Origin: Oceanidesulfovibrio marinus
Lineage (GTDB): Bacteria > Desulfobacterota > Desulfovibrionia > Desulfovibrionales > Desulfovibrionaceae
Length of the DNA stretch: 64,000 bases
Reading direction: 5' to 3'
NCBI RefSeq assembly: GCF_013085545.1
Contig: NZ_CP039543.1
Coordinates: 3,007,322-3,071,321 of the forward strand
Under the pieces are notes generated by a model. That model was not told where the DNA came from, searched no databases, and worked only from the letters and a program-made list of their open reading frames with translations. The position numbers and the translations under genes were made by a program. Position 1 is the stretch's first letter, and the number at the start of each line of letters is the position of its first letter. This document shows positions 41,299-58,972 of this stretch, piece by piece.

Positions 41299-42859
<1,561 letters not shown>

Positions 42860-43129
42860 CGCGTGCTCCCTCCCTTGGGTTTAAGTTTCCGGTGGTGGTA
42901 CAATTTTGTATGTCAGTTGTCTACATTTTTGAAATGTTATTCATAATATGGTTAAATAGTTAATGTATCACCGTGCTGATTGTTACATTTTCTTATGGGA
43001 GCGTAACGGTTTCACCCATGTTCCTTTTTCCCGGACACGCCCAGCCTTGAACATTGCATTTTTGACATGTTTGTCTAACGCCCTCTCCTCATGGCCTTTA
43101 CCGGCGGCCTGGGATAGTTATTAGATACC

Positions 43130-43798
43130 ATGAACAAAGACATTGCAGGAATCACACGCGCTACCATCGAGGCCCTTGTCCCCATCCGCGGCGTCCGCGT
43201 GCTGGAGATCGGTTGCGGCGACGGCCGCATTACCGGACAGCTTGCGCCGGAGCCATCCCTGCTGGCTGGCGTGGAGCCCTGCGCGGACCAGGCGGCCATC
43301 GCCGGGCGCATCGAGGGCGCATGCGTCGCGGCGGCCGCGGCCGAGCACCTGCCTTTTGCCGACAATGCCTTCGATACCGTGCTCTTCACCCTGTCGCTGC
43401 ACCACGCGGAATCTGCGAAAGCTTTAGCAGAGGCGGCGCGGGTGACCCGGCATGGCGGCGCGATCATCGCCGTGGAGCCCCATCCGCACGGCACGGTGCA
43501 GCTGCTCTCCCATATTTTCGAAGACGAAGGCTGGCGACTGGAGCGAGGCCGCCGCGCCCTGGACGACAGCGAGGCTCTGGCCGCCGCCGGGATGCGAGTC
43601 GTTCTGGAGCGGGCCTTTACCGCGCATTGGGAGTTCGCGGACTTCCAGGAGCTCTGCGACTACCAGTTTGAGTACTTCGACATGCCGCAATCCGAAGAGC
43701 TGGTGCAAGCGATGCTGGACTTTCTCGGCCCGGACTGCGCCGGGCAACGGCCCCTCATTCTGGAGGATCTGCTCGTGGCCGCCGTGCTTGAGGTGTAA
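43130..43798 (+). CDS. SAM-dependent methyltransferase (class I)
   Basis: 222 residues with motif I VLEIGCGDGRITG (24-36), an acidic end of strand two (GVEPCADQ) and motif post-I/IV in AFDTVLFTLSLHH. This UbiE/BioC-like pattern suggests a small-molecule substrate. No good ribosome site precedes the ATG at 43130, so the start may be off by a few codons. It is divergent from amt. The substrate is unknown. Confidence 0.85.
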   Translation: MNKDIAGITRATIEALVPIRGVRVLEIGCGDGRITGQLAPEPSLLAGVEPCADQAAIAGRIEGACVAAAAAEHLPFADNAFDTVLFTLSLHHAESAKALAEAARVTRHGGAIIAVEPHPHGTVQLLSHIFEDEGWRLERGRRALDDSEALAAAGMRVVLERAFTAHWEFADFQELCDYQFEYFDMPQSEELVQAMLDFLGPDCAGQRPLILEDLLVAAVLEV

Positions 43799-43885
43799 CA
43801 ATATTGTCGCGATTCTGTTGCCCAATCCTGCGCGCTTTTGTACAAGTGATGGGAAACTTGGAACCTATTCCCCAAGGAGACAGCG

Positions 43886-44104
43886 ATGTCTGCTGACGAG
43901 AAGAACACTGTCGATCCCGCGACCGACGAGTTGAGAAAGATTCGGCACCAGCTCAAGGAGCTGACCGAGGCCGTCTACGCCATGGCCGGCGTGATGCTGA
44001 TGAGCGGCATGCCCCAGTCCGGGCCGGAAAACGCCGTGAGCCAGCTGCGCACCGTGCGCACGGCCATGTCGACCGAGTTCAGGAAGCAGGAGGACGCCGA
44101 GTAG
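43886..44104 (+). CDS. Small hypothetical protein
   Basis: 72 residues, acidic and helical, with one hydrophobic stretch in the middle (VYAMAGVMLMSGM, 30-42). AAGGAG lies at ideal distance before the ATG, and a bidirectional terminator follows, so it is very likely expressed. I do not recognise a family. It sits between the methyltransferase and the second PII gene, on the plus strand. Confidence 0.7.
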   Translation: MSADEKNTVDPATDELRKIRHQLKELTEAVYAMAGVMLMSGMPQSGPENAVSQLRTVRTAMSTEFRKQEDAE

Positions 44105-44149
44105 CGGCTCTGCTTCAGGACACGAACCGGTCCATGAACCAAAGAAAAA

Positions 44150-44178
44150 GGCCGCCTGCGCAATACAGACGGCCTTTT
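44150..44178. terminator. Bidirectional terminator between convergent genes
   Basis: A 9-bp stem with one mismatch (arms 44150-44158 and 44166-44174) followed by TTTT on the plus strand and by TTTTTC on the minus strand. It separates the small plus-strand gene from the second PII gene. Confidence 0.75.
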
Positions 44179-44200
44179 GTTGTTGTGGAATGAGGCTGGG

Positions 44201-44533
44201 TTAGCTCAGGTTTTCCTCGCCGGTGCGGACGCGGTAGGACTGCTCCACATCCTGGACCAGGATAACGCCGTCGCCTTCACGGCCGGTCTTGGCGGCGCCC
44301 ATGATGGCCTGAACCGCATCGTCGACCTTGGCCTCGGAGACAGCGAGCTCCAGGCGTACCTTCTTGAGCAGGTTCACTTCCATGACAACGCCGCGATAGG
44401 TCTCGGTGAAGCCTTTCTGGCGGCCGGAACCGAGGATATTGGTAACGGACATGCCGTAGAACTGCTTGGCGTACAGCGCCTGCTTGACGTCTGTCAGGCT
44501 CTCGGGCCTGATATATGCGATGACGAGCTTCAT
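44201..44533 (-). CDS. PII-family protein with Met at the uridylylation position
   Basis: 110 residues with PII core motifs (TNILGSGRQKGFTETYRG, GREGDGVILVQDVEQSYRVRTGE). The T-loop reads RGVVMEVNLLKK, so the residue equal to Tyr51 is methionine and GlnD cannot uridylylate it. It follows the second amt gene by 27 nt and should bind that channel. Control must be by direct binding of ATP/ADP and 2-oxoglutarate, as in NifI-type or other non-uridylylated PII proteins. No nif genes are in the window. Confidence 0.9.
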   Translation of the reverse strand: MKLVIAYIRPESLTDVKQALYAKQFYGMSVTNILGSGRQKGFTETYRGVVMEVNLLKKVRLELAVSEAKVDDAVQAIMGAAKTGREGDGVILVQDVEQSYRVRTGEENLS

Positions 44534-44560
44534 ATATTCCTCCTGTGCATGACGTTCGGG

Positions 44561-45937
44561 TTACTCGACGGTGAAGATCTGGAAGCCGTTGTAGCCCTCC
44601 GTGCCGTGCTCGGAGAGGTCCAGACCCTTGATCTCATCTTCCTTGCTGGCGCGCAGGCCCATGACCGCCTTGACGACGGAGAAGGCGATGAAGCCCACAC
44701 CGAAGGCCCAGACAAAGACCACCGCAACGCCCAGCGCCTGGACGAAGAACACGTCGATGGAACCGCCATAGAACAGGCCGACAGCGTCGCCGTAGCCAGG
44801 GGCGGCCAGCAGGCCGGCGCCCAGCGTACCCAGAGCGCCGCACACGCCGTGCACGGAAACCGCACCGACCGGGTCGTCGATCTTGAGGACCTTGTCGATG
44901 AACTCGACGGAGAACACGCAGACCATACCGGCGACAGCGCCGATGACGATGGAGCCGACAGGCGAGAGCTCGTAACAGCCGGCTGTGATGGCGACCAGGC
45001 CAGCGAGCACGCCGTTCATCGTCATGGACGGATCAGGCTTGCCGTGCTTCAGCCAGACCGTGATCATGGCGCCGAGCATACCGGCGGCGGCGGCCAGGGA
45101 GGTGTTCACGGCGATGTAGCCGATGGTGCCGTCAGCAGTGGTGGTGGAGCCGGGGTTGAACCCGAACCAGCCGAACCAGAGGATGAAGACGCCGAGGGAA
45201 GCCAGCGGAATGTTGTGCCCCGGAATGGCGCGGGCCGTGCCGTCAGAGGCATACTTGCCGATACGCGGTCCAAGGACCAGCGCGCCGGCCAGACCGACCC
45301 AGCCGCCAACGGAGTGAACGACGGTGGAGCCGGCAAAGTCGATGAAGCCGAAGCCTTCCAGCCAGCCGGCGCCGGCATCGCCCAGCCACAGGCTGCCCCA
45401 GCACCAGTGTCCCGAGACGGGGTAGATGAGAGCCGTGGTGATGATGGATATGACGATGTACGAACCGAACTTGGTGCGCTCGGCCACGGCGCCGGAAACG
45501 ATGGTTGCGGAAGTCGCGGCGAACACGGACTGGAAGAACCAGAAGGTCAGCGTCCACTGGCCGTCCGGAGTTGCGCCGTTGGCGCCGCCCAGGGCGAAGC
45601 CGGAGCTGCCGAAGACGCCGCTGACGTCGGTGCCGAACATGATGCCGAAGCCCAGCAGGAAGAAGGCGATGGCGCCGGCGCCGAAGTCCAGATAGTTCTT
45701 CATCAGAATGTTGCCGGCGTTTTTCGCGCGGGTGAAGCCGCACTCGACACAGGCGAAACCGGCCTGCATGAACATGACCAGCACGCCAGCGATGAGCGTC
45801 CAAAGGATGTTCGCGTTGCTCTGGAGCAACATTTCCGGAGCATCCTGCGCCAAAGCGAGCCCGGGCGCCATAAGGACACCCAAGACAGCCATCCCCAGTA
45901 CGAGACGGCTTTTGTGAACCGTAATCCGAGAAACCAT
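44561..45937 (-). CDS. amt: Ammonium transporter (Amt family), second copy
   Basis: 458 residues: a probable signal peptide (about 1-30, ending in GLALA) followed by the Amt core with VMFMQAGFACVECGFTRAKNAGN, DFAGSTVVHSVGGWVGLAGA (pore His), FGWFGFNPGSTTTADG and SVHGVCGALGTLGAG (pore His). It belongs to the long, signal-peptide-bearing type and is clearly different from the first amt. AAGGAGGT precedes the ATG. A -24/-12 promoter lies about 120 bp upstream, so expression probably depends on sigma-54 and an NtrC-like activator under nitrogen limitation. Confidence 0.93.
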   Translation of the reverse strand: MVSRITVHKSRLVLGMAVLGVLMAPGLALAQDAPEMLLQSNANILWTLIAGVLVMFMQAGFACVECGFTRAKNAGNILMKNYLDFGAGAIAFFLLGFGIMFGTDVSGVFGSSGFALGGANGATPDGQWTLTFWFFQSVFAATSATIVSGAVAERTKFGSYIVISIITTALIYPVSGHWCWGSLWLGDAGAGWLEGFGFIDFAGSTVVHSVGGWVGLAGALVLGPRIGKYASDGTARAIPGHNIPLASLGVFILWFGWFGFNPGSTTTADGTIGYIAVNTSLAAAAGMLGAMITVWLKHGKPDPSMTMNGVLAGLVAITAGCYELSPVGSIVIGAVAGMVCVFSVEFIDKVLKIDDPVGAVSVHGVCGALGTLGAGLLAAPGYGDAVGLFYGGSIDVFFVQALGVAVVFVWAFGVGFIAFSVVKAVMGLRASKEDEIKGLDLSEHGTEGYNGFQIFTVE

Positions 45938-46163: not shown

Positions 46164-46192
46164 TTGAAACATCGTTTCCGGGGTATTTTACA
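46164..46192 (+). promoter_or_regulatory. Candidate promoter of the aromatic supercluster leader
   Basis: TTGAAA (46164-46169) and TTTACA (46187-46192) separated by 17 nt. The match is modest (4 of 6 and 3 of 6). It would start a leader RNA near 46199, upstream of the leader peptide. Another weak pair, TTGACT (46270) with TAGTAC (46293), would start transcription at the leader ATG itself. Neither is certain. Confidence 0.35.
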
Positions 46193-46305
46193 CAAAGTTG
46201 TAAAAAATGGCTACTGACACTTTCAGTATCTTCTGGCGCAACCCCCGCACATCTTTTCTGCCTTTTTTGTTGACTTCCAGTCTTGCCGCGGGTAGTACGT
46301 CGCCT

Positions 46306-46392
46306 ATGAATACCCACAAACCGCTGGCTTCCTACTTTTTCTTTTTTTATTTTTGGCGCTGGACTGTCCGCGGTCGGAAGGGTACGAGCTAA
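46306..46392 (+). CDS. Aromatic-rich leader peptide of the aro/trp attenuator
   Basis: A 28-residue peptide whose codons 10-19 (46333-46362) read Tyr-Phe-Phe-Phe-Phe-Tyr-Phe-Trp-Arg-Trp: nine aromatic residues in ten. A strong intrinsic terminator follows the stop by 27 nt, and the first enzyme gene of the aromatic pathway starts 108 nt after the stop. This matches leader peptides such as PheL, which sense charged tRNA. The same frame stays open back to an ATG at 46207 (61 residues), so the start is not certain; neither ATG has a strong ribosome site. Confidence 0.8.
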   Translation: MNTHKPLASYFFFFYFWRWTVRGRKGTS

Positions 46393-46454
46393 GAGTCTTC
46401 TCAAGGTGAATCGAACCAGGGCCGCGGGCAGTAAAGCCGGCGGCCCTTTTTTTT
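46366..46454 (+). promoter_or_regulatory. Transcription attenuator: antiterminator and terminator
   Basis: Terminator: stem arms 46419-46425 and 46440-46446 (7 bp, plus an inner 3 bp) followed by eight T (46447-46454). Antiterminator: GTCCGCGGTC (46366-46375, inside the leader peptide codons) can pair over 10 bp, two of them wobble, with GGCCGCGGGC (46420-46429), which includes the terminator's left arm. The two structures exclude each other. A ribosome stalled on the Phe/Tyr codons leaves 46366-46375 free and favours read-through; one that reaches the stop at 46390 covers it and lets the terminator form. Confidence 0.8.
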
Positions 46455-46499
46455 CACCGCCGGCCCTCCCCGGGGCACGCAAAGGCAAGGAGTAAGACC

Positions 46500-47306
46500 A
46501 TGCTTCTCGGAAAAGGGGTGCGCCAGGAACGCATCTTCAACCGGAACACCGGCAGGACCATCATCGTCCCCATGGATCACGGCGTATCTGTCGGACCTGT
46601 CCACGGCCTCGTCGACTTCAAAGGCACCGTCAACAAGGTCGCCGACGGCGGCGCAAACGCCGTACTCATGCACAAGGGGTTGCCGCGATGCACCCACCGC
46701 GGCTACGGCCGCGACATCGGGCTCATCGTCCACCTCTCCGCTTCCACCAACATTTCTCCTTTCCCCAACGCCAAGACCCTGGTCGGCACTGTTGAAGACG
46801 CCATCCGGCTGGGCGCCGACGCCGTTTCCCTGCATGTGAACCTGGGTGATGAGACCGAGCCCAAAATGCTCGAAGACCTGGGCCGCATCTGCTCCACCGC
46901 CGCAGGATGGGGCATGCCTGTGCTCGCCATGATGTACGCCCGCGGCAAGAAGGTGGAGAACGAGTACGATCCCAAGCTTGTGCGCCACTGCGCCCGCGTG
47001 GCCGTGGAGCTCGGCGCGGACATCGTCAAGGTCGCCTACACCGGCGACATCGAGTCCTTCCATACTGTGGTGGAGGCATGCTGCGTGCCCGTGGTCATCG
47101 CCGGCGGCGAAAAGCTGGAGTCCACCCGCGACCTCATCCAGATGGTCCACGACTCCATCCAGGCTGGCGGTGCCGGTCTCTCCGTGGGCCGCAACGTGTT
47201 CCAGCACGAGAACCCGACCCTCCTGTGCCAGGCCCTCAACGGCGTGGTCCACGAGGATTGGGATGTGGAGCAGGCCATGGAACTTCTCGAACCGGAAGGA
47301 AGCTAG
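46500..47306 (+). CDS. 2-amino-3,7-dideoxy-D-threo-hept-6-ulosonate synthase-type class I aldolase, paralog 1
   Basis: 268 residues, TIM-barrel class I aldolase of the DhnA/ADH-synthase family. It begins with [20 protein letters not shown]; the Schiff-base lysine is Lys177 in [10 protein letters not shown]. In methanogens and Desulfovibrio relatives such enzymes make the six-carbon amino-sugar precursor of 3-dehydroquinate, replacing DAHP synthase. AAGGAG precedes the ATG at 46500. It is the first enzyme gene behind the attenuator and is followed by a close paralog; one of the pair may act as ADH synthase and the other as fructose-1,6-bisphosphate aldolase or donor-sugar transaldolase. I cannot tell which. 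Confidence 0.85.
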
Positions 47307-47316
47307 GGAGCCCGCC

Positions 47317-48123
47317 ATGCGTATCGGTAAAGCAATCCGCCGCGAGCGCATCTTCAATCGCGACACCAAGCGGACCATCATCGTTCCTCTGGACCACGGC
47401 ATTTCCATCGGACCAGTCCACGGTCTCGTGGACCTTCGGGAAACCGTGAACAGCGTAGCCGAGGGCGGCGCCAACGCCGTGCTCATGCACAAGGGCCTGG
47501 TCCGTTGCGGCCACCGCACCAGCGGCAAGGACATCGGCCTGATCCTGCACCTCTCCGCCTCCACGGACGTCTCCCCCTACCCCAACGCCAAGACCCTGGT
47601 CTCCAGCGTGCGCGAAGCCCTGAAGCAGGGCGCCGACGCCATCAGCGTGCACATCAACCTGGGCGACGAGACCGAGCGGCACATGCTCAAGGAAGTGGGC
47701 GAGGCGGCCGAGGAAGCCGCGGACTGGGGCATGCCCCTCCTGGCCATGGTCTACGGCCGCGGCCCCAAGATCAAAGACGGCTTCGCCCCGGACGTGGTGG
47801 CGCACTGCGCCCGCGTGGGCCAGGAGCTCGGCGCGGACATCATCAAGGTCGTCTACACCGGCGACCCCGACTCCTTCGCCAAGGTGGTGGAATCCTGCTG
47901 CGTGCCCGTGGTCATCGCCGGCGGCCCCAAGCTCGACTCCGACCGCGACCTCTTGACCATCGTGCACGACTCCATAGCCGCCGGCGGCTCCGGCCTTTCC
48001 GTGGGCCGCAACATCTTCCAACACGAGAACCCCGCCGCCCTGTGCCGCGCCCTGGCCGGCATTGTGCACGACGGACGCACCGTGGACGAGGGGATGGAAA
48101 TCCTCAGAGGAGCCGACCGATGA
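47317..48123 (+). CDS. 2-amino-3,7-dideoxy-D-threo-hept-6-ulosonate synthase-type class I aldolase, paralog 2
   Basis: 268 residues, same length as the gene before it and alignable end to end with it without gaps. Lys177 in [10 protein letters not shown] is the Schiff-base residue. GGGAG precedes the ATG at 47317, 10 nt after the first paralog. Its stop overlaps the start of the DHQ synthase II gene in an ATGA junction, so this copy is the one physically coupled to the next pathway step. It differs from paralog 1 mainly on surface helices and in the 61-71 loop ([11 protein letters not shown] versus [11 protein letters not shown]), which could bear on substrate choice. Confidence 0.85.
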
Positions 48124-49094
48124 AAGAGATATGGTTCAAGGCCGTGCCCTTTGACAAAGAGCTGGTGACCCTGGCGCTGGAGTCCGGCGTGGACGGCATC
48201 ATCGTCGACAAGACCAAGAAAAAGGACGTGGCAGCATTGGGACGCACCAATGTGATCTCGCCCGAGGAGCTGACCGACGTGTGCCTGAACGCCAAGGACG
48301 ACGAGGAACGCGCCGTTGGGTGCCTGCGCGACGGCCAGAAGGTCGTTCTTTCCACCGGCTGGGAGATCATCCCGGTGGAGAACATTCTGGCGCAGTCCAA
48401 AGGCCTGGGCGTGGAGGTTGCCTCCCTGGACCAGGCCCTGCTCGCGGCCGGCATTCTGGAGCACGGGGTGGACTTCCTCGTGGTGCTGCCGGAAGCCGCG
48501 GCCGAGCTCAAGGACATCGTCTCGCAGGTCAAGCTGGCTCAGGGCATGGCCCAACTGCAATCCGCCACTATTACCGCCGTGGAGTCCGCCGGACTGGGCC
48601 ATCGCGTCTGCGTGGACACCCTCTCCGTGCTCAAGCGCGGCCAGGGCATGCTCGTGGGCAACTCCTCGGCTTTCACCTTCCTGGTGCACGCGGAAACCGA
48701 GTCCAACCCCTATGTGGCGGCGCGGCCTTTCCGCATCAACGCCGGCGCCGTGCACGCCTACGCGCTCATGCCCGGCGACAAGACTGCCTATCTGGAGGAG
48801 GTCACGGCCGGTCGCGAGGTGCTTATCGTCTCGGCCGACGGCTCGACCTCCCTTGCCACCGTTGGCAGGGCCAAGGTGGAAGTGCGCCCCATGCTGCTCA
48901 TTCGCGCGCGTCTGGAGGACGGCACCGAGGGAGCCATTTTTCTGCAGAACGCGGAGACCATCCGCCTCGTCACTGCGGCGGGAGAACCCGTGAGCGTGGT
49001 CACCCTGAAGGAGGGGGATCAGGTGCTCGTCAAGGCGGACGCGGCCGGCCGGCATTTCGGCATGCGCATCCGCGAGGATATCAAGGAAGCGTGA
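48120..49094 (+). CDS. 3-dehydroquinate synthase II
   Basis: 324 residues, the archaeal-type DHQ synthase (AroB' / MJ1249 family) that oxidatively deaminates and cyclises the ADH-synthase product with NAD+ to give 3-dehydroquinate. Family stretches are visible: [17 protein letters not shown] at the start, [32 protein letters not shown] in the middle, then [31 protein letters not shown]. It overlaps the second aldolase gene by 4 nt. Finding it next to the aldolases confirms that the cell uses the DAHP-independent entry into the shikimate pathway. Confidence 0.92.
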
Positions 49095-49096
49095 CC

Positions 49097-50281
49097 ATGG
49101 CCGCCCAGTACAATTTCGAACCCGAAACCCCCTCGGCGGACGATGCGTCCACGGAACGGATGACCGGTCTGCGCGAGTCCATAGACGCGCTGGACAAGGA
49201 TCTCCTGGATATTCTCAACAGGCGTGCCGCCCTTTCCCTGGAGGTGGGACGCATCAAGGCCGGATCGCACGACCTCGTGTTCAAGCCGTTCCGCGAAAAA
49301 GAGGTTCTGGCCAATCTGGCAGCTGCCAACCCCGGCCCTCTGCCGGAGACGCACCTGCGCTCCATCTACCGCGAGATCTTCTCCAGCTCGCGGGCGTTGC
49401 AGCGGCCCCAGCGTGTCTCGTATCTTGGACCGGAAGGCACCTTCTCCTACTTTGCCGGCGTCCAGTTTCTTGGACGCGCCGTGGACTTCCTGCCCGAGTC
49501 GGACATCCCCAATGTGTTCAGGGCCGTGGCCTCCGGCCGCGCCGAGCTGGGCATCATCCCGCTGGAGAACTCCCTGCAGGGCACCGTGGGCCAGAGCCTG
49601 GACCACTTCCTCCAGCAGAAGGTCTACATCCAGTCCGAGATCTTCTGCCGCATCAGCCACAGCCTGCTGGGCCATTCCGGCCCGCTCTCCTCGGTGCGCA
49701 CGGTCTACTCGCATCCCCAGCCCCTGGCCCAGTGCTCCGGCTGGCTGCGCTCCATGCTGCCGCAAGCCCACGTGGTGCCCATGGAGTCCACGGCCGCCGC
49801 GGCCACCCGCGTAGCCGAGACCAACGAGGAAGGCGCCGCGGCCATCGGCCATGGCGGACTGGCCTCCATGCTGGGTCTGGACGTCCTGGCCTCCGGCATC
49901 GAGGACCTGGGCGACAACTGGACGCGCTTCGTGCTCATCGCCGGAACGCCGTCCGACGCCTCCCTGTCCAAGGCCGCGCGGGACAAAACCTCCATGCTCT
50001 TTACCGTGCCGGACAAGCCAGGCTCCCTGGTCAGTGTCCTCGGGACCATCGCCCGCAACGGCATCAATATGAAAAAGCTCGAATCGCGGCCCATGCGCGG
50101 CGAAACGTGGAAGTACGTCTTCTTCGTGGATGTGGAGTGCGACCTGGAGCAGGACGAGTACGCCGAAACCCTGCGCGACCTGGAGAACGCCTGTCACTCC
50201 CTGCGCATTCTCGGCAGCTACCCCAGCGGCCCGTACCTCGACGTTTCCGGCCAGACCGCCGATAAGGAGAGCGCAGCATGA
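49097..50281 (+). CDS. pheA: Bifunctional chorismate mutase/prephenate dehydratase
   Basis: 394 residues in three domains: chorismate mutase (about 15-100, LRESIDALDKDLLDILNRRAALSLEVGRIK), prephenate dehydratase (about 110-295, YLGPEGTFSY, IIPLENSLQGTV) and a C-terminal ACT domain (about 305-385) with the ESRPMRGETWKYVFFVD segment that binds phenylalanine for feedback inhibition. It makes phenylpyruvate. The start is 2 nt after the DHQ synthase II stop; the stop overlaps aroA by 4 nt. Confidence 0.95.
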   Translation: MAAQYNFEPETPSADDASTERMTGLRESIDALDKDLLDILNRRAALSLEVGRIKAGSHDLVFKPFREKEVLANLAAANPGPLPETHLRSIYREIFSSSRALQRPQRVSYLGPEGTFSYFAGVQFLGRAVDFLPESDIPNVFRAVASGRAELGIIPLENSLQGTVGQSLDHFLQQKVYIQSEIFCRISHSLLGHSGPLSSVRTVYSHPQPLAQCSGWLRSMLPQAHVVPMESTAAAATRVAETNEEGAAAIGHGGLASMLGLDVLASGIEDLGDNWTRFVLIAGTPSDASLSKAARDKTSMLFTVPDKPGSLVSVLGTIARNGINMKKLESRPMRGETWKYVFFVDVECDLEQDEYAETLRDLENACHSLRILGSYPSGPYLDVSGQTADKESAA

Positions 50282-51645
50282 GCCAGCATACCCACCCGGC
50301 CACGGTCACCGCGCCGGCCTCCAAGTCCATGTCCCACCGCGCCATGATGGCCGCGGCACTGGCGGACGGCGAGTCGCACCTCTTCAACGTGCTCGACTCC
50401 GATGACCTCATCCGCACCGCCGACGCTTTGCGCGAGTCCGGCTCCTCCATTGCGCCGCTCACGGCCCTGGAGCCCGGCGCCTTTGCCGTGCTGGGCCAGC
50501 CCGAGGGCCCGGACGGCTCGCCGGACGAGGACACCCCCACCGAGATCGACGTGGCCGAGTCCGGCACCACCTGCCGGCTGATCACCGCCATCCTCGCCGC
50601 CGGACAGGGCTCCTTCCGCGTGCACGGCAAGGGCCGCATGCACGAGCGCCCCATCGGCGCGCTGGCGCAGTCCCTGGAGACCCTCGGCGTGCGCTTCAAG
50701 TATGAGGGCACGCACGGCTGCCCGCCCTTTGTGCTCACCACCGAGGGCCTCCGCGGCCGCGAGGTGTCCGTGGATATCTCGGAGTCCAGCCAGTACCTCT
50801 CCGGCCTGCTCCTGGCCGCGCCCCTGGCCGACGGTCCGCTGACCATCTCCCTGGCCGGCGAGAAGACCGTATCCTGGCCCTATGTCTCCCTCACCCTGCA
50901 GATGCTCGAAGAGTTCGGCATCCCCTTTGTGGTGGAGGTCAACCCCGGCAGCGGCTGGCAGGCTGTGGACGACTGGAGGCTGGTGCGCGCCGCCGTGCCC
51001 GGCAAGGTCCGCTTCCGCATGGAGCCGGCCACCTACCGCGCGCGCAAGTACGTGGTGGAGGGCGACTGGTCCAACGCCTCGTACTTCCTGGCCGCCGGCG
51101 CCGTGGGCCCGGCCCTGGTGCGCGTCCGCGGCCTGGTCATGGAGTCCCTGCAGGGCGACTCCGCAATCATCGACATCCTGCAGGATATGGGCGCGGAGAT
51201 CACCTGGGAGCGCGACGCCGTAACCGTGGAACCCAGGCACCTGAACGGCATCGAGCGGAATATGTCCGAGTCGCCGGACATCGTGCCCACCGTGGCCGTG
51301 CTCGCCGCCATGGCCGACGGCCCCACCAGGATCACCGGCGTGCCCCACCTGCGCATCAAGGAAAGCGACCGTCTGGCAGCCTGCGCCAAGGAGATCAGCA
51401 AGGTCGGCGCATCGGTCATGCTGCTGGACGACGGCATCATGATCACGCCCAAGCCCATCTCCCAGCAGCTCAAGCAGGAAGGAGTGGACTTCTCCTCCCA
51501 CGGCGACCACCGCATCGCCATGAGCCTGTCGCTGTTCGAGCGCGTGGGCCTGCCCGTGCGCTTCGACGACCCCACCGTGGTGAACAAGTCCTTCCCCGGT
51601 TTCTGGGACGAGTGGGACAAGCTCCGAAACGGGGGTGGCGTCTAG
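50278..51645 (+). CDS. aroA: 5-enolpyruvylshikimate-3-phosphate synthase
   Basis: 455 residues. AroA joins shikimate-3-phosphate and PEP. Motifs: PASKSMSHRAMMAAALADG (13-31), ESGTTCRL (PEP/S3P loop), ESSQYLSGLLLAAPLA, HLRIKESDRLAACAKEI and SSHGDHRIAMSLSL near the C-terminus with the catalytic Asp/Glu/Lys/Arg set. The first loop reads ESGTTCR where common enzymes have GNAGTAMRP or GNSGTTMR, so it belongs to a divergent class. It overlaps pheA (4 nt) and tyrA (1 nt). Confidence 0.93.
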   Translation: MSQHTHPATVTAPASKSMSHRAMMAAALADGESHLFNVLDSDDLIRTADALRESGSSIAPLTALEPGAFAVLGQPEGPDGSPDEDTPTEIDVAESGTTCRLITAILAAGQGSFRVHGKGRMHERPIGALAQSLETLGVRFKYEGTHGCPPFVLTTEGLRGREVSVDISESSQYLSGLLLAAPLADGPLTISLAGEKTVSWPYVSLTLQMLEEFGIPFVVEVNPGSGWQAVDDWRLVRAAVPGKVRFRMEPATYRARKYVVEGDWSNASYFLAAGAVGPALVRVRGLVMESLQGDSAIIDILQDMGAEITWERDAVTVEPRHLNGIERNMSESPDIVPTVAVLAAMADGPTRITGVPHLRIKESDRLAACAKEISKVGASVMLLDDGIMITPKPISQQLKQEGVDFSSHGDHRIAMSLSLFERVGLPVRFDDPTVVNKSFPGFWDEWDKLRNGGGV

Positions 51646-52424
51646 TGGAACCCTCATTTACCAGCGCGGACCCCGCCTTTCGCAGCATTGTGGTGGTGGG
51701 AGCCGCAGGACAGATGGGTGCGCTTTTCGCCAAGCGCGCCCGCGCCCTGGGCGCAACTGTGCACGAGCTCGACAAGCCCCTGGCCGGCCCCGCTCTGGAG
51801 GCCGTGCCCGGGGCCGACCTCGTGCTGCTCTGCGTGCCCCTAGGCGCCATAGAGACCGTGCTCGAAGAGATCGCGCCGCTGCTCGATCCCGGAACCGTGC
51901 TCGCGGACATCGTGTCCGTGAAGGTCAAACCGCTCAAGGCCATGCTCCGCGCCCACGCCGGACCGGTGGTGGCCACGCACCCCCTGTTCGGCTCCAAGCC
52001 GCCCAAGGACGCCCGCGTGGCCATGATCCCGTCTGGCCGTGTGGATGACGAGGCGGCCTGCGCCCGCGTGGAAGCGTGGATGCGCGCCCTGGGCTTCGAC
52101 ACCTTCCGCACCACGGCGGAGAAGCACGACCAGGCCATGGCCATGGTCCAGGGTCTCAACTTCGTCACAACCATTGCGTACCTTGCAGCCATGGCCGATC
52201 CGGAGCTCACCCCCTACATCACGCCCTCCCTGGGCCGCCGGCTCGACGCCGCGCACAAGATGGTGACCCACGACGCATCGCTGTTCGAGACTATTTTTGA
52301 GGCGAACCCGTTCAGCCAGGACGCGGTGCGTCGTTACCGCAACTTCCTCCACGTGGCCGCCGGCGGCGATCTGGACCTGCTCGTCGAACGCGCCCAGTGG
52401 TGGTGGCGGGAAAACGTGATCTGA
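51645..52424 (+). CDS. tyrA: Prephenate dehydrogenase
   Basis: 259 residues, a monofunctional TyrA with N-terminal Rossmann domain (IVVVGAAGQMGALFAKRA) and the HPLFGSKPP substrate motif, followed by an all-helical dimerisation domain. It converts prephenate to 4-hydroxyphenylpyruvate. The GTG start at 51645 overlaps the aroA stop by one base, with GGGGGTGG upstream. No ACT domain, so tyrosine control is likely at the attenuator or elsewhere. A 97-nt gap follows before trpE, which may hold an internal promoter. Confidence 0.9.
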   Translation: MEPSFTSADPAFRSIVVVGAAGQMGALFAKRARALGATVHELDKPLAGPALEAVPGADLVLLCVPLGAIETVLEEIAPLLDPGTVLADIVSVKVKPLKAMLRAHAGPVVATHPLFGSKPPKDARVAMIPSGRVDDEAACARVEAWMRALGFDTFRTTAEKHDQAMAMVQGLNFVTTIAYLAAMADPELTPYITPSLGRRLDAAHKMVTHDASLFETIFEANPFSQDAVRRYRNFLHVAAGGDLDLLVERAQWWWRENVI

Positions 52425-52521: not shown

Positions 52522-53920
<1,399 letters not shown>

Positions 53921-53940
<20 letters not shown>

Positions 53941-54493
53941 TTTTGACTCCTTCACCTACAACCTGGTGCAGGCGTTCCAGAAGATAGGGCTGAACCCCGA
54001 GGTGATCCGCAACGACCGCCCCGAGATCCTGGAGCTCGCGAACTCCGGGAAGCTGGAGATGGTCTGCATCTCCCCCGGCCCTTCCCACCCGCGCAATGCC
54101 GGGCTGTGCCTGCAGTTTCTGGAAAAGCTGCCCCACGAGATTCCGGTGCTCGGCGTCTGCCTGGGCCACCAGGTGCTCGGCCACTTTGCCGGCGCCACCG
54201 TGGACGTGGGACCGCGCATCATGCACGGCAAGACCTCGGACATCCGCCACAATGGCGAGGGCCTGTTCTACGGCATGCCCAACCCCATGACCGTGGGCCG
54301 CTACCACTCCCTGCTTGTAGCGGCGGAAGAAGCGCCGGACCTCCTGGAGGTTACGGCCGAGACGTCCGAGGGCGAGGTCATGGGCATCCGTTACAAGGAC
54401 CGGCCCTGGGCCGGCGTCCAGTTCCACCCGGAATCGGTGCTCACCCCGGACGGTCCCGAGCTCTTGAGCAACTTCCCGAGCAAGCTCTTGTAG
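53921..54493 (+). CDS. trpG: Anthranilate synthase component II (glutamine amidotransferase)
   Basis: 190 residues, a class I amidotransferase with the catalytic triad Cys80 (GVCLGHQ), His169 and Glu171 (FHPES). It starts with FLLIDNFDSFTYNLVQ. It provides ammonia to TrpE. The start lies inside the 3' end of trpE (20-nt overlap) with GGAGG upstream. It is a separate protein, not fused to TrpD. Confidence 0.95.
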
Positions 54494-54526
54494 AGCGCTG
54501 CTCATATCCATTTTGCGAGGAATCTC

Positions 54527-55546
54527 ATGGCAATACTCTATCCATTCAGCGAAATTCTGGAGCAGCTCGCCCAGGGGCAGGACCTGGACGACGACCAGGC
54601 CGCCTCGGCCTTCACCATGCTGCTGTCCGGCGAGCTGACCCCGGCCCAGGCCGGAGCCATGCTCATGGGCCTGCGCGCCAAAGGCGAGACCGCCCGGGAG
54701 GTGGCCGCCGCGGTGCACGCCGCCCTGGCCGAGGCGCGCATGGTGCAGGGTCTCGAAGGCAAGCGCATCGACACCTGCGGCACTGGCGGCGACCACTCCA
54801 ACTCCTTCAACTGCTCCACAACGGTGGCCTTCTACCTGGCCGCCATGGGCTACGCCGTGGTCAAGCACGGCAACCGCTCGCTCACCAGCTACTCCGGCAG
54901 CGCGGACATCGTGGAGGCCCTGGGTCTGCCCATGCACGACAGCCCGGAGGCCGTGGCCGAGTCCCTGGCCAAGGAGAAGTTCGCCTTCCTCTTCGCGCCG
55001 CACTTCCACCCGGCGTTCAAGTACATCATGCCCGTGCGCAAGGATCTCGCCATCCGCACCCTGTTCAACCTGCTGGGGCCGCTGCTCAACCCCGGCCGGC
55101 CCACGCACCAATTGCTCGGTGTGCCCCGGCCGCAGGTGCTGGACCTCATGGCCGAGGTGCTGCTGCTCACCGGCGTCACCCGCGCCGCCGTGGTCTGCGG
55201 CTCTGGCGGATCGTCCGAGGGCCGCTTCGACGAGTTCACTACTTTCGGCCCGGCCGAGGTAGTCTGGGTGGGCGGAGGCAACCTCGTGCACACGGTGCTC
55301 GACCCGGCCGAGTTCGGCTTCCCCAAGCACGCGCCGGAGGACGTGGCCGTGCACAGCAAGGAGGAGGCCGTGGATACCGTGAAGGGCCTGCTCGCGGGTA
55401 AAGGTCCCCAGGCCATGCAGGACATGGTCGCGCTCAACCTGGGCGTGGCCCTGCACATCCTGGACGACGACCTCGGCCTGGCCGAGAGCTTTGACAAGGC
55501 CCGCGCCGCCGTCAGCCAGGGCGTTGCAAGCCGGTACGCGGACTAG
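54527..55546 (+). CDS. trpD: Anthranilate phosphoribosyltransferase
   Basis: 339 residues. The PRPP-binding DTCGTGGDHSNSFNCST (82-98) and the KHGNRSLTSYSGSAD segment (119-133) identify it; NLLGPLLNPGRP follows. The second motif departs from the usual KHGNRAVSSKSGSAD at three positions, while the key glycines and Asp are kept. GAGGA precedes the ATG, 33 nt after trpG. Confidence 0.95.
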   Translation: MAILYPFSEILEQLAQGQDLDDDQAASAFTMLLSGELTPAQAGAMLMGLRAKGETAREVAAAVHAALAEARMVQGLEGKRIDTCGTGGDHSNSFNCSTTVAFYLAAMGYAVVKHGNRSLTSYSGSADIVEALGLPMHDSPEAVAESLAKEKFAFLFAPHFHPAFKYIMPVRKDLAIRTLFNLLGPLLNPGRPTHQLLGVPRPQVLDLMAEVLLLTGVTRAAVVCGSGGSSEGRFDEFTTFGPAEVVWVGGGNLVHTVLDPAEFGFPKHAPEDVAVHSKEEAVDTVKGLLAGKGPQAMQDMVALNLGVALHILDDDLGLAESFDKARAAVSQGVASRYAD

Positions 55547-55555
55547 GGGGCTCCA

Positions 55556-56323
55556 GTGCTCGACAAGTTCCGCATCGCCAAGCAGCCCGAGGTCGATCTG
55601 CTGACCCGCATGGCCGACGCTGGCACGCTGCCGCCGCCGCTGGAAGGCCCCCGGCCGTCCTTTCTGGACGCGCTCACCGCGCCCGGACTCACGGTCATCG
55701 CCGAGTACAAGCGCGCCTCGCCTTCCAAAGGCGACATCGCGCTGAACCTGGAGCCCGAGGATGTGGCCCGCGCCTATGCCGAAGCCGGCGCCGGGGCCAT
55801 CTCCGTGCTCACGGAGACCGAGTACTTCAAGGGCGACATCGCCTTTCTGGAGCGCATGACCGCGGCCGGCCTGCCGCTCTTGCGCAAGGACTTCCTCGTT
55901 CACCCGCTCCAGGTGCGCCAGACCGCGGCCACCCCGGCCTCCGCGCTGTTGCTCATCGCGCGGATGTTTCCGGACGCCGCAGCCCTGGCCGCCATGAAAG
56001 AGCAGGCCGACGCATACGGCCTGGACAGCGTGGTGGAAGTTTTTGACGAAAACGACCTGGACATGGCCAAGGAAATTAATTCTACCATCATTCAGGTCAA
56101 CAACCGCGATCTCGACCGCCTGACCACGGACCTCGCCATTTCCGAGCGGCTTGCATCCCGCAAGGATTCGGGCGAAACGTGGATCAGCGCAAGCGGCATG
56201 GAGGCTCCTGAACACCTCGCCCGGATGCGCTCCCTGGGCTTCGACGCCGTGCTCGTGGGCACCTCGCTCATGCGCGGCGGCGACCCCGGACGCGCCCTGG
56301 CCACGCTCACCTCGGAGGTCTGA
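55556..56323 (+). CDS. trpC: Indole-3-glycerol phosphate synthase
   Basis: 255 residues, TIM barrel, monofunctional. Motifs: IAEYKRASPSKGDI (catalytic Lys), VLTETEYFKGD, LLRKDFLVHPLQV (Lys/Asp pair), then VNNRDL and the phosphate-binding GTSLMRGGDP. It starts at a GTG (55556) preceded by GGGGG, 9 nt after trpD. Confidence 0.94.
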   Translation: MLDKFRIAKQPEVDLLTRMADAGTLPPPLEGPRPSFLDALTAPGLTVIAEYKRASPSKGDIALNLEPEDVARAYAEAGAGAISVLTETEYFKGDIAFLERMTAAGLPLLRKDFLVHPLQVRQTAATPASALLLIARMFPDAAALAAMKEQADAYGLDSVVEVFDENDLDMAKEINSTIIQVNNRDLDRLTTDLAISERLASRKDSGETWISASGMEAPEHLARMRSLGFDAVLVGTSLMRGGDPGRALATLTSEV

Positions 56324-56325
56324 AT

Positions 56326-56994
56326 ATGAGTACGTGCGGCGATGTCATGCTCAAGGTCTGCGGAGTAACGAGACAGGAAGATGCGGACGCGGTCCGCGCC
56401 ATCGGCGCGTCGCTCATCGGCTTCATCTTCCACCCGGCAAGCCGGCGCAATGTGACGCCGGAGCAGGTGCGCGCCATCGAGACCCACCGTCTCATGCGCG
56501 TCGGGGTCTTCGTGGACCAGTCGCCGGACGAGATATTACGGATCATGGACAAGGCCGGCCTGCACCTGGCGCAGCTGCACGGCGACCAGGACGCCGCCTT
56601 TTGCAAAAAGGTGGGCAGAAACCGCGTCATGCGTGCTTTCTGGCCGGAACGATATCCCACGCGCGAGGCGTTGGAGACCGATCTCCATCGGTACGAGGAC
56701 TGCAGCCGGTTCTTTCTGTTCGATGCCGGCGCATCCGGCGGCGGCCACGGCCGCTCCTTCGACGCCAGCCTGCTCAAGGGCCTGTGCTCGCTGAAGACGT
56801 GGTTCCTTGCCGGCGGCCTGGGGCCGCACAACATCTGCGAGGCTGTGTGTAACTGCGACCCCTGCGGAGTGGACCTCTCCTCCGGGGTGGAGGCCTCGCC
56901 CGGCATCAAGGACCACGCCAAGCTCACGGCGCTGCGCAGCGCCCTGGATGGCCTGATGCGCAACCCAAATCAATCCTGTTGTGGAGAATTATAA
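56326..56994 (+). CDS. trpF: Phosphoribosylanthranilate isomerase
   Basis: 222 residues. Key motifs are LKVCGVTRQEDADA (general base Cys11), GFIFHPASRRNVTPEQ, VGVFVDQ, LAQLHGD, the catalytic Asp in [16 protein letters not shown] and LAGGLGPHNI. GGAGGT precedes the ATG, 2 nt after trpC; its stop overlaps the ATG of trpB by one base. A short cysteine-bearing tail (NQSCCGEL) is unusual. Confidence 0.93.
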   Translation: MSTCGDVMLKVCGVTRQEDADAVRAIGASLIGFIFHPASRRNVTPEQVRAIETHRLMRVGVFVDQSPDEILRIMDKAGLHLAQLHGDQDAAFCKKVGRNRVMRAFWPERYPTREALETDLHRYEDCSRFFLFDAGASGGGHGRSFDASLLKGLCSLKTWFLAGGLGPHNICEAVCNCDPCGVDLSSGVEASPGIKDHAKLTALRSALDGLMRNPNQSCCGEL

Positions 56995-58202
56995 TGGATA
57001 TTCAGAAGACGGCCTTTGAAAAGGCCAGCTACTTCGGGCGCTTCGGGGGCACGTTTGTTCCCGAGCTGCTCATACCACCGCTCACCGAGCTGGAAGAGGC
57101 CATGCGCACCATCATGGTCAGCAAGGAGTTCCAAAGCGAGCTGGCTCTGCTGCTGCGCGACTACGTGGGCCGGCCCTCGCCCCTGTACCGCTGCCCCAAC
57201 CTCTCCCAGGAGCTCGGCTTCGACCTCTTCCTGAAGCGCGAGGACCTGAACCACACCGGCGCGCACAAGGTGAACAACACCATGGGCCAGGCCCTGCTGA
57301 CCAAGTACATGGGCAAGCCCGTGCTGCTGGCCGAGACCGGCGCCGGGCAGCACGGCGTGGCCACGGCCACGGCCGCGGCCATGATGGGCCTGCAGTGCCT
57401 CGTGTTCATGGGTGCAACGGACGTAAAGCGCCAGGCCCACAACGTGATGCGCATGGAGCTCTTGGGCGCCAAGGTGATTCCCGTACAAAGCGGCACCCAG
57501 ACCCTGAAGGACGCCACCAACGCGGCCCTGCGCTACTGGATTGCCGAGCAGGAGACCACGCACTACTGCCTGGGCTCCGTGGTCGGGCCGCACCCCTTCC
57601 CCACCCTGGTGCGCGACCTGCAGGCCGTCATCGGCAAGGAGATCAAAGCGCAGTCTCTGGAGCAGACCGGCGTGCTGCCGGACTACGTGGTCGCCTGCGT
57701 GGGCGGCGGCTCCAACGCCATCGGCGCGTTCTACGATTTCATCGAGGATGAGTCCGTGAAGCTCGTGGGCGTAGAGGCGGCCGGCACCGGCGAGCCCGAC
57801 TGCTACAACTCGGCCAGCATCAACAAGGGCACGCCCGGCGTGCTGCACGGCGCGCTGACCCTGCTGCTGCAGACCAAAGACGGACAGATCCTGCCCTCCC
57901 ACTCCGTGGCCCCCGGCCTGGACTACCCCGGCGTGGGACCGGAGCACGCCCATCTGCACGACTCCGGCCGGGCCACCTACACCTCGGTCAACGACGAGCA
58001 GGCCATCGAGGCCTTCAACACCCTGTGCCTCAAGGAAGGCATCATCCCGGCGCTGGAATCCTCCCACGCCCTGGCCTGGGTGCTTGAAAACAGGGACTCC
58101 ATCCCGGCGGGCAGCCGCGTGGTGGTCAACCTGTCCGGCCGTGGCGACAAGGATCTCGGAATCGTCGAGGAAATCATCGCAGCACGCGGGGAGGTCGCCT
58201 AG
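56994..58202 (+). CDS. trpB: Tryptophan synthase beta subunit
   Basis: 402 residues, TrpB1 type. The PLP lysine is Lys92 in NHTGAHKVNN; the phosphate-binding GGGSNA motif and the GRGDKD ending are present, as is GRFGGTFVPELL at the N-terminus. It condenses indole and serine in complex with TrpA. The start overlaps the trpF stop (TAATG). Confidence 0.96.
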   Translation: MDIQKTAFEKASYFGRFGGTFVPELLIPPLTELEEAMRTIMVSKEFQSELALLLRDYVGRPSPLYRCPNLSQELGFDLFLKREDLNHTGAHKVNNTMGQALLTKYMGKPVLLAETGAGQHGVATATAAAMMGLQCLVFMGATDVKRQAHNVMRMELLGAKVIPVQSGTQTLKDATNAALRYWIAEQETTHYCLGSVVGPHPFPTLVRDLQAVIGKEIKAQSLEQTGVLPDYVVACVGGGSNAIGAFYDFIEDESVKLVGVEAAGTGEPDCYNSASINKGTPGVLHGALTLLLQTKDGQILPSHSVAPGLDYPGVGPEHAHLHDSGRATYTSVNDEQAIEAFNTLCLKEGIIPALESSHALAWVLENRDSIPAGSRVVVNLSGRGDKDLGIVEEIIAARGEVA

Positions 58203-58204
58203 CC

Positions 58205-58972
58205 ATGGCTCAGTCACGACTGCAACAACGCATCAAGGCGGCCAACGACGCGGGCCGCAAGGCCCTCATTCCCTTCCTGCCCGGCGGCTACCCCGACCAG
58301 GAGCGGTTCTGGGAAGAGATCACCGAGCTGGACAAAGGCGGCGCAGACGTCATCGAGATTGGCGTGCCCTTCTCCGACCCTGTGGCCGACGGCCCGGTGG
58401 TGGAGCAGGCGTCCCTTGCCTGCATCGAGTCCGGCGTCTGCCTCGAATGGATCATCCAGGAGCTCACCAGGCACCGCGACGCCATCGGCGCAGAGATTGT
58501 GCTCATGGGCTACATGAACCCCTTCTACCAGTATGGGCTGAAGCGCTTTGCCCAGGACGCGGCCAGGGCCGGCGTGGCCGGCATCATCATCCCGGACGTG
58601 CCCCTGGAGGAAGCGGCGGCGTTCCGCGCCGAGCTGGACGCGGTAGGCATCGACCTCATCGCGCTCATCGGCTTGAACACCCCGCGCGAGCGCATGGAGC
58701 AGTACGCGGCCGTGTCCTCCGGCTTTGTCTACCTGGTCAGCGTGCTGGGCATCACCGGCGCACGCGACACCTTGCCGGACAAGGTTCGCGGCAAGCTGGC
58801 CGAGGCGCGGGAAGTTTTCGACCTGCCCCTGGCCCTCGGTTTCGGCATCAAGTCCCCGGAGCAGCTCGACGCCTTCGGCGACCACCTGGACGCCGTGGTC
58901 TTCGGCTCGGCGCTCATCCAGCACATCCGCGGCGGCGAAAGCGCCGCCTCCTTCATGGAGCGCTGGCGCTGA
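58205..58972 (+). CDS. trpA: Tryptophan synthase alpha subunit
   Basis: 255 residues. Catalytic Glu51 and Asp62 lie in EIGVPFSDPVADGP; phosphate is bound by the GFGIKSPEQ and FGSALI segments. It cleaves indole-3-glycerol phosphate and channels indole to TrpB. It is the last gene of the supercluster; its last 20 nt overlap the 3' end of the convergent adenylate cyclase gene, so no terminator fits between them. Confidence 0.95.
   Translation: MAQSRLQQRIKAANDAGRKALIPFLPGGYPDQERFWEEITELDKGGADVIEIGVPFSDPVADGPVVEQASLACIESGVCLEWIIQELTRHRDAIGAEIVLMGYMNPFYQYGLKRFAQDAARAGVAGIIIPDVPLEEAAAFRAELDAVGIDLIALIGLNTPRERMEQYAAVSSGFVYLVSVLGITGARDTLPDKVRGKLAEAREVFDLPLALGFGIKSPEQLDAFGDHLDAVVFGSALIQHIRGGESAASFMERWR

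Follow-up and report, generated by a model that had tools for sequence, protein, structure and literature searches.

A very likely aromatic-codon attenuator before the aro-trp supraoperon of Oceanidesulfovibrio marinus and its counterparts in relatives

The aro-trp supraoperon of Oceanidesulfovibrio marinus raises the question of whether a single leader could adjust the transcription of genes for phenylalanine, tyrosine and tryptophan biosynthesis, and which of these amino acids such a leader would sense. In Escherichia coli and Salmonella, the trp and pheA attenuators combine a leader peptide bearing control codons with a terminator and a competing antiterminator, ahead of an operon for the matching amino acid. 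We analysed a window of 64,000 nucleotides from the 4.76-Mb O. marinus genome, for which an original prediction made from the letters alone had proposed a ribosome-mediated attenuator in front of the aro-trp genes. Comparison with relatives supports that proposal: the leader is kept and the antiterminator covaries, and because of these two results it is very likely that positions 46270-46454 are a ribosome-mediated transcription attenuator, predicted to sense charged tRNA-Phe, tRNA-Tyr and, more weakly, tRNA-Trp on behalf of a 13-gene supraoperon.

The leader region and the operon behind it

The supraoperon comprises two ADH synthases, a 3-dehydroquinate (DHQ) synthase II, pheA, aroA, a tyrA-like gene and trpE to trpA (Table 1), of which trpG, trpC and trpF were named by eye; the same gene order was matched in relatives. 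Tandem ADH synthases, which head the operon in the window, were also seen, among 110 loci, at L002-L004, L008, L031, L032 and L035. The upstream neighbours, on the opposite strand, are genes for an ammonium transporter and a PII protein (named by eye). Further features noted there by eye include two glnB-amtB (PII-protein/ammonium-transporter) pairs with an adjoining glnD-like gene on the minus strand (41299-45937), a methyltransferase-like ORF that lies between the two pairs on the opposite strand, and a palindrome, TTTACA-N6-TGTAAA (46188-46205), in the intergenic region common with the divergent ammonium transporter gene, which may be an operator for either flanking side.

Table 1. Positions in the window of the leader elements and of the genes of the supraoperon.
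Feature	Position	Strand	Basis
Predicted promoter: -35 TTGACT 46270-46275, 17-nt spacer, weak -10 TAGTAC 46293-46298	46270-46298	+	Sequence and family geometry
Leader peptide ORF, 28 codons and TAA	46306-46392	+	Sequence; peptide MNTHKPLASYFFFFYFWRWTVRGRKGTS, then stop
5' side of a possible 1:2 protector hairpin	46310-46332	+	Minimum-energy folds; pairs with about 46361-46384
Antiterminator left arm, inside the leader ORF	46366-46375	+	Pairs with 46420-46429
Intrinsic terminator: stem 46419-46429/46436-46446, loop 46430-46435, T8 46447-46454	46419-46454	+	Sequence, folding, alignment
Shine-Dalgarno-like AAGGAG ahead of the first structural gene	46487-46492	+	Sequence
ADH synthase 1 (2-amino-3,7-dideoxy-D-threo-hept-6-ulosonate synthase)	46500-47306	+	TIGR01949, 402 bits
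ADH synthase 2, tandem copy	47317-48123	+	TIGR01949, 371 bits
3-Dehydroquinate synthase II	48120-49094	+	NF002628, 549 bits
Chorismate mutase/prephenate dehydratase (pheA)	49097-50281	+	NF008865, 257 bits; CM_P2, 60 bits, below cut-off
aroA (EPSP synthase)	50278-51645	+	TIGR01356, 368 bits
tyrA-like prephenate dehydrogenase, start uncertain	51612-52424	+	NF008400, 119 bits, below curated cut-off
trpE, start uncertain	52522-53940	+	TIGR00564, 457 bits, below curated cut-off
trpG, trpD, trpC, trpF, trpB, trpA	53921-58972	+	ORFs; trpD, trpB and trpA by NCBIfam

Both structural elements of the original prediction, namely a leader of 28 codons in which nine of ten consecutive codons are aromatic and a terminator with eight T opposed by a 10-bp antiterminator, were borne out by the sequence and by folding. 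The leader begins at the ATG at 46306, and its control codons (Y10 F11 F12 F13 F14 Y15 F16 W17 R18 W19) occupy 46333-46362; start, run and length are identical in a genome of the same genus. The terminator stem reads GGGCCGCGGGC-agtaaa-GCCGGCGGCCC at 46419-46446, followed by T8 (-25.5 kcal/mol), and its 5' arm doubles as the right arm of the antiterminator, the 10 pairs of which form a duplex of -25.1 kcal/mol, such that the two helices are mutually exclusive. The leader folds with z = -2.29, and 4 of 200 shuffles fold as well. The minimum-energy folds contain a possible 1:2 protector hairpin, which would sequester the antiterminator arm in RNA that carries no ribosome. A promoter downstream of the terminator had been named beforehand as evidence that would speak against attenuation; in the 45 bases between the terminator and the first gene, no promoter-like sequence was found by eye.

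A simple promoter/terminator scanner reported neither the window terminator, because the stem has an internal mismatch, nor the leader promoter, because TAGTAC fails its -10 rule; its sole promoter call at the locus lies on the minus strand (46213-46185).

Conservation and covariation among relatives

The relatives comprised 80 named loci that are, by their titles, mostly from Desulfovibrionales and Desulfobacterales, and ADH synthase was present in 54 of the 59 genomes searched, own genome included. A leader was defined as an ATG-initiated ORF with at least five aromatic residues in eight, or at least four where TTGAC lay 33-40 nt before it; since the set was found through a search for aromatic ORFs, its aromatic richness is by construction. 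The original prediction had proposed searching for the same leader upstream of orthologous clusters. Such a leader was identified in 143 of the 163 ADH-synthase loci with at least 250 nt of upstream sequence (a redundant set), compared to 5 of 163 when the same upstream regions were reverse-complemented and 1 of 282 when 450-nt tiles of the window were screened on both strands. The window leader is therefore not a product of chance.

Among the named loci with enough upstream sequence, a leader was identified in 72 of 78, two further loci being too short. The 20 loci of the 163 that lacked a leader by this definition were the named loci L077, L084, L088, L091, L097 and L098 and the ADH synthases L112, L113, L117, L118, L121-L123, L125, L128, L132, L133, L136, L145 and L162, and the latter group is mostly stand-alone in the stretch examined. 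Removal of identical ORFs left 120 distinct leaders, 118 of them with a terminator located by script (that of L114 mislocated). Screening of the O. marinus genome with model R1 revealed no second copy of the leader: only the leader in the window matched strongly (E 1.8e-15), and the remaining, weak matches started at 0.015.

Pairing was evaluated in alignment A1, which holds 79 of the 118 rows (near-duplicates, 18 divergent rows and L114 were left out), and in a wider alignment of 117 rows, comprising all but L114. In A1, 91.3% of terminator cells are paired, with 33 double-change cells compared to 6.2 in shuffles, and the antiterminator (11 columns) is paired in 92.6% of cells, compared to 36-46% when slid, with 25 double-change cells compared to 7.1 in shuffles. 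The wider alignment gives 94.0% pairing for the 10 antiterminator pairs of the window (35-42% when slid) and 92.0% for the terminator, and the 18 divergent rows absent from A1 are paired in 85.0% of antiterminator and 90.9% of terminator cells; in L124 and L130, just 4 and 5 of the 10 antiterminator pairs form. RNAalifold, run on its own, recovered the terminator, along with a hairpin of 3 bp in the arm, and did not recover the antiterminator, as expected because the folds are mutually exclusive.

One base illustrates the balance between the two helices. Base 46426 (column 145), in the 5' arm of the terminator, pairs with leader base 46369 (column 62) in 114 of 116 rows and with its own terminator partner, 46439, in only 24 of 117, so that it has been retained for antiterminator pairing to the detriment of the terminator. 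In the 79-row set, the 46426/46369 pair is UA in 49 rows, CG in 17, UG in nine and AU in two, with one mismatch. Base 46369 opens the codon for the Cys, Arg or Ser residue of a peptide tail, R-A-C/R/S-G, that appears conserved among leaders. Because this base pairs with the terminator 5' arm, the conserved appearance of the tail probably reflects RNA pairing rather than a function of the peptide.

Leaders favour TTT over TTC (439 versus 130) and TAT over TAC (212 versus 97), and the 13 operon genes of the window show the opposite usage (TTT 28 versus TTC 111; TAT 10 versus TAC 65). The bias in leaders could reflect slower decoding or a lack of structure, and either explanation fits.

Control codons, their spacing and operon content

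Aromatic codons in the 79 aligned leaders lie mostly from -33 to -9 nt relative to the antiterminator arm, which is in frame with the leader in 75 of them and follows the codons at an almost constant spacing. Trp is most common at -12 (31 of 79 leaders) and never occurs at -9, where 50 leaders have Phe and seven have Tyr. The edge of a stalled ribosome lies about 12 nt past the first A-site base, and -12 would therefore be the last codon position at which a stall leaves nearly the whole arm free. W17 of the window is located 12 nt before the arm and W19 is located 6 nt before it.

We modelled stalls by folding the transcript to 46440 under a ribosome mask. Stalls at codons 10-16 gave all 10 antiterminator pairs, a stall at W17 left seven, a stall at W19 left three and a ribosome at the stop codon left none. 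When the full-length transcript was folded, the terminator was favoured for stalls from F14 on, and the antiterminator must therefore form first if such stalls are to be effective.

These data are consistent with a mechanism in which the predicted promoter would place the transcription start at the leader AUG, giving a leaderless RNA, and a ribosome would trail RNA polymerase through the leader. Scarcity of charged tRNA-Phe or tRNA-Tyr would stall that ribosome on codons 10-16 and leave 46366-46375 free to pair with 46420-46429, pre-empting the terminator and allowing the genes to be transcribed; a stall at W17 would yield a partial antiterminator. With all three aminoacyl-tRNAs ample, the ribosome would reach the stop codon and cover the arm, and the terminator would form.

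The original prediction held that a stall at the last Trp codon could mask the arm and that Phe and Tyr may be the main signals. The first point stands for W19 (3 of 10 pairs remain) and does not extend to W17, which leaves seven; the second agrees with the 10 pairs obtained for codons 10-16, but Trp probably signals as well. Specifically, the model suggests that Trp is probably sensed in this copy too, more weakly than Phe and Tyr, because W17 occupies the commonest Trp position of the family. A reading in which only Phe and Tyr are sensed here and the Trp codons are passengers, which is compatible with attenuation as such, draws on the masking of the arm at W19 and on the 7 of 10 pairs at W17 versus 10 of 10 at codons 10-16; given the placement of W17 and the presence of Trp in all leaders of trp-containing operons (see below), we consider it possible but doubtful.

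To relate control codons to gene content, 89 of the 120 leaders were classified by operon, in part by hand (for the other 31, the contig or stretch did not show the operon). Trp was present in the 10-residue run of 47 of 47 leaders of trp-containing operons, compared to 8 of 20 leaders of aro operons in which trp was not found and 6 of 22 leaders of stand-alone ADH synthases, where the 'no trp' and 'stand-alone' classes rest on stretches of unequal length (about 0.5 kb beyond the ADH synthase for L076). The association is strong when kinship is ignored (Fisher 5e-13, 89 leaders). In L046, L059, L067 and L070, among the eight leaders with Trp and no trp genes found behind them, the Trp follows the last Phe of the run, and L013, which shares a contig with L045, was counted among operons without trp because no trp gene is present there. 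Some leaders of stand-alone ADH synthases are Phe-only or Tyr-rich.

Twelve genomes that encode both a stand-alone ADH synthase and a larger operon with DHQ synthase II allow the comparison to be made within a genome. In 12 of 12, Trp occurs solely in the run of the larger operon, and the stand-alone runs are Phe-rich in six, mixed Phe/Tyr in two and Tyr-rich in four. Among the nine larger operons checked for trp genes (all but those of G005, G025 and G031), eight contain them, and none were seen in that of G006 (L045). G012, outside the 12, has one leader without Trp (L159) and one with Trp (L149), the operon of which runs off the contig.

Leaders of the supraoperons of G004, G007, G009 and G019, and L159 of G012, lack Trp, and the stretches read behind them contain no trp genes. 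No trpE match was identified in G004, G009 or G012 (G004 is 89% and G012 83% complete), and the organisms with L146 (G004), L141 (G009) and L159 (G012) are possible tryptophan auxotrophs. Separate trp operons are preceded by WW candidate leaders in G007 and G019 and by WWW leaders in G017, G026 and G037; upstream of trpE in G002, no Trp leader was found. The trpE of G022 is probably inside a larger operon, since the ORF just upstream resembles the end of tyrA. Exceptions to the rule are the leaders of G002, G006, G026 and G037, which carry Trp although no trp genes were found in the operon, and the Trp codons before five Desulfoluna-type stand-alone genes, in L144 and in L149.

Leader types change 18 times on the ADH synthase tree. 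A test corrected for kinship could draw on five pairs on well-supported branches, of which a mean of 3.4 were concordant and none opposed (sign test, p about 0.25). Control codons thus mostly follow gene content: the correspondence is descriptively clear, and its independence, with few independent events behind it, is demonstrated only in part.

Transcript start, alternative explanations and related systems

The predicted transcription start of the window lies at about 46304-46306, that is, at the leader ATG, with TTGAC 36 nt before the ATG. TTGAC is located 35-40 nt ahead of the ATG in 105 of the 120 distinct leaders (mode 37), a count that owes something to start choice, as TTGAC at 33-40 nt was preferred among in-frame ATGs; with starts chosen without TTGAC, exact TTGACA was found at 33-40 nt in 75 of the 89 leaders of the first set. 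Among the 105, TA is present at the -10 position in 102 and a pyrimidine precedes the ATG in 103. Because of this placement of TTGAC, the leader transcript probably starts at the AUG, a likely property that the original prediction had overlooked.

An alternative is that the attenuator is preceded by an ordinary 5' untranslated region, with transcription starting further upstream and TTGAC not serving as its promoter. The -10 of the window is weak, and AT-rich stretches are present between 46150 and 46260. Moreover, TTGAC is absent from the interval 33-40 nt ahead of the ATG in 15 of the 120 leaders, and Shine-Dalgarno-like motifs are more common in these (in a 16-nt window, 8 of 15 versus 12 of the 105 near-TTGAC leaders; in a 20-nt window, 11 of 15 versus 19 of 105). 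In the first set of 89, the eight leaders that lack the near element carry TTGACA at a distance of 73-97 nt upstream, a form that includes the leader of Nitratidesulfovibrio, which we take to be the D. vulgaris group. Against this stand the regular geometry of TTGAC, TA and pyrimidine described above and the fact that the near element fills the space where a Shine-Dalgarno sequence would sit, such that we regard an ordinary 5' untranslated region in the window as unlikely. In a FastTree phylogeny of 117 ADH synthases, three changes are needed to explain the near- and far-promoter forms, and the pair L008/L035 is nested within a clade of the predicted leaderless form.

A second alternative retains the peptide as the sensor: as in TnaC, a free aromatic amino acid would cause the nascent chain to arrest the ribosome, and slow decoding would not be the trigger. 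The peptide is indeed short and hydrophobic, with the conserved-looking tail noted above. Arrest peptides have fixed residues, however, and the run varies freely among Phe, Tyr and Trp, including Phe-only and Tyr-rich forms; the C/R/S residue of the tail varies in step with the pairing of the RNA to the terminator; and if an abundant amino acid caused the arrest, the biosynthetic genes would be turned on just when they are not needed. We therefore consider peptide arrest highly improbable.

Equally hard to credit is a constitutive terminator, or control by an RNA-binding protein, T-box or riboswitch with an incidental aromatic ORF: a strong terminator by itself would lower expression, but an Rfam search, covering leader, T-box and riboswitch families, gave only five weak matches here, none near its gathering score, codon content mostly tracks operon content, and the spacing from codons to arm is almost constant, with the arm in frame in 75 of 79 leaders.

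Ribosome-mediated attenuation may also extend to loci other than those of ADH synthase. Of 297 genomes of the phylum, 90 gave matches to a covariance model built from A1 at E values up to 0.001; many weaker matches are probably plain terminators. Among 29 loci from this search (L209-L237), a script identified an aromatic leader (at least five of eight) in 25; it identified none in L219 and L230, and in L232 and L234, which begin near a contig end, it screened the wrong stretch. Genes with a similar leader in front include DAHP synthases of the aroFGH type (L222, L223) and of the B. subtilis type (L227, L228) and an aminotransferase (L221), and the match before an iron alcohol dehydrogenase (L226) may be due to chance. 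In another lineage of the phylum, the leader before a metallo-beta-lactamase-fold protein (L225) has six consecutive Tyr codons. L236 and L237 have a short leader ending in FFFFFG, with TTGAC 33-40 nt upstream; that of L236 (FFFFF) precedes a periplasmic binding protein, and leaders of this type perhaps belong to a Phe-controlled transporter.

Like the trp and pheA attenuators of E. coli and Salmonella, the window combines a leader with control codons, a terminator, a competing antiterminator and a matching operon. It differs from them in that a single run carries codons for all three aromatic amino acids, the start is probably leaderless, and ADH synthase and DHQ synthase II head the supraoperon. 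The original prediction knew of no attenuator described before such a pathway. One is in print as a prediction: Table 7 of PMC1173090 lists, from Merino's database, a putative attenuator before the D. vulgaris aroA'-aroB'-aroQ-pheA-aroF-tyrA-trp supraoperon, the same operon type in the same bacterial group. As far as the accessible part of that source goes, the entry is a database prediction of terminator and antiterminator folds and mentions neither a leader peptide with control codons nor a leaderless start, and it does not extend to relatives. A search of the literature on attenuation in Desulfovibrio and Deltaproteobacteria, with subscription papers mostly outside its reach, returned no other description, although Vitreschak 2004 may contain one; the accessible portions of PMC4833913, PMC2965389, PMC1262725, PMC11109978 and PMC2864571 hold no description of this attenuator.

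A search for leaderless transcripts in Desulfovibrio returned nothing on point. Leaderless leader peptides are known elsewhere, however, and the probable leaderless start is therefore new, as far as the literature searched shows, for this setting only. The 5' end of the Sinorhizobium meliloti trpL RNA (rnTrpL), which attenuates biosynthetic genes, is the ATG (PMC7298713), a state that promoter geometry makes probable for the window leader too. According to the portion of that article available, trpL differs in sensing Trp only, in its 14-aa peptide, in serving trpE(G) only and in the trans-acting roles reported for it. In Streptomyces lividans, attenuator leader peptides are also transcribed leaderless; in the available text, the four seen as leaderless comprise two for Leu, one for Met and one for Thr, and three of the four have no clear intrinsic terminator (PMC8079986). 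What appears to be new in O. marinus and its relatives, given that the element is very likely an attenuator, is the probable leaderless start, the control run for three amino acids and the apparent re-aiming of the scaffold among relatives.

We regard as evenly balanced the broader proposal that aromatic biosynthesis in the Desulfobacterota is largely governed by a codon-programmable leaderless attenuator. One design of nearly fixed distance would have been reused before the supraoperon (Phe, Tyr and Trp), before stand-alone ADH synthase isozymes (Phe-only or Tyr-rich) and before DAHP synthases elsewhere, its specificity rewritten several times by codon swaps, and a promoter at the AUG would let a 70S ribosome load as the RNA emerges.

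E. coli has three DAHP synthases, AroF, AroG and AroH, which are isozymes of the first step assigned to individual aromatic amino acids through repressors and allostery. Isozymes here appear to be likewise split by amino acid, through leader codons, and if the proposal is true, codon-programmed leaders would be the counterpart of the enteric Phe, Tyr and Trp isozymes. The leaders would then form a natural series in which codon swaps have redirected one attenuator scaffold among three amino acids, and paralogous enzymes within a single genome would serve as internal controls. The existence of leaders that apparently start at the first base of the RNA, together with relatives that have a farther promoter, would make the role of the initiation mode in transcription-translation coupling testable. 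For sulfate reducers, the attenuator would offer a prediction of how aromatic amino acid synthesis by the ADH-synthase route is controlled.
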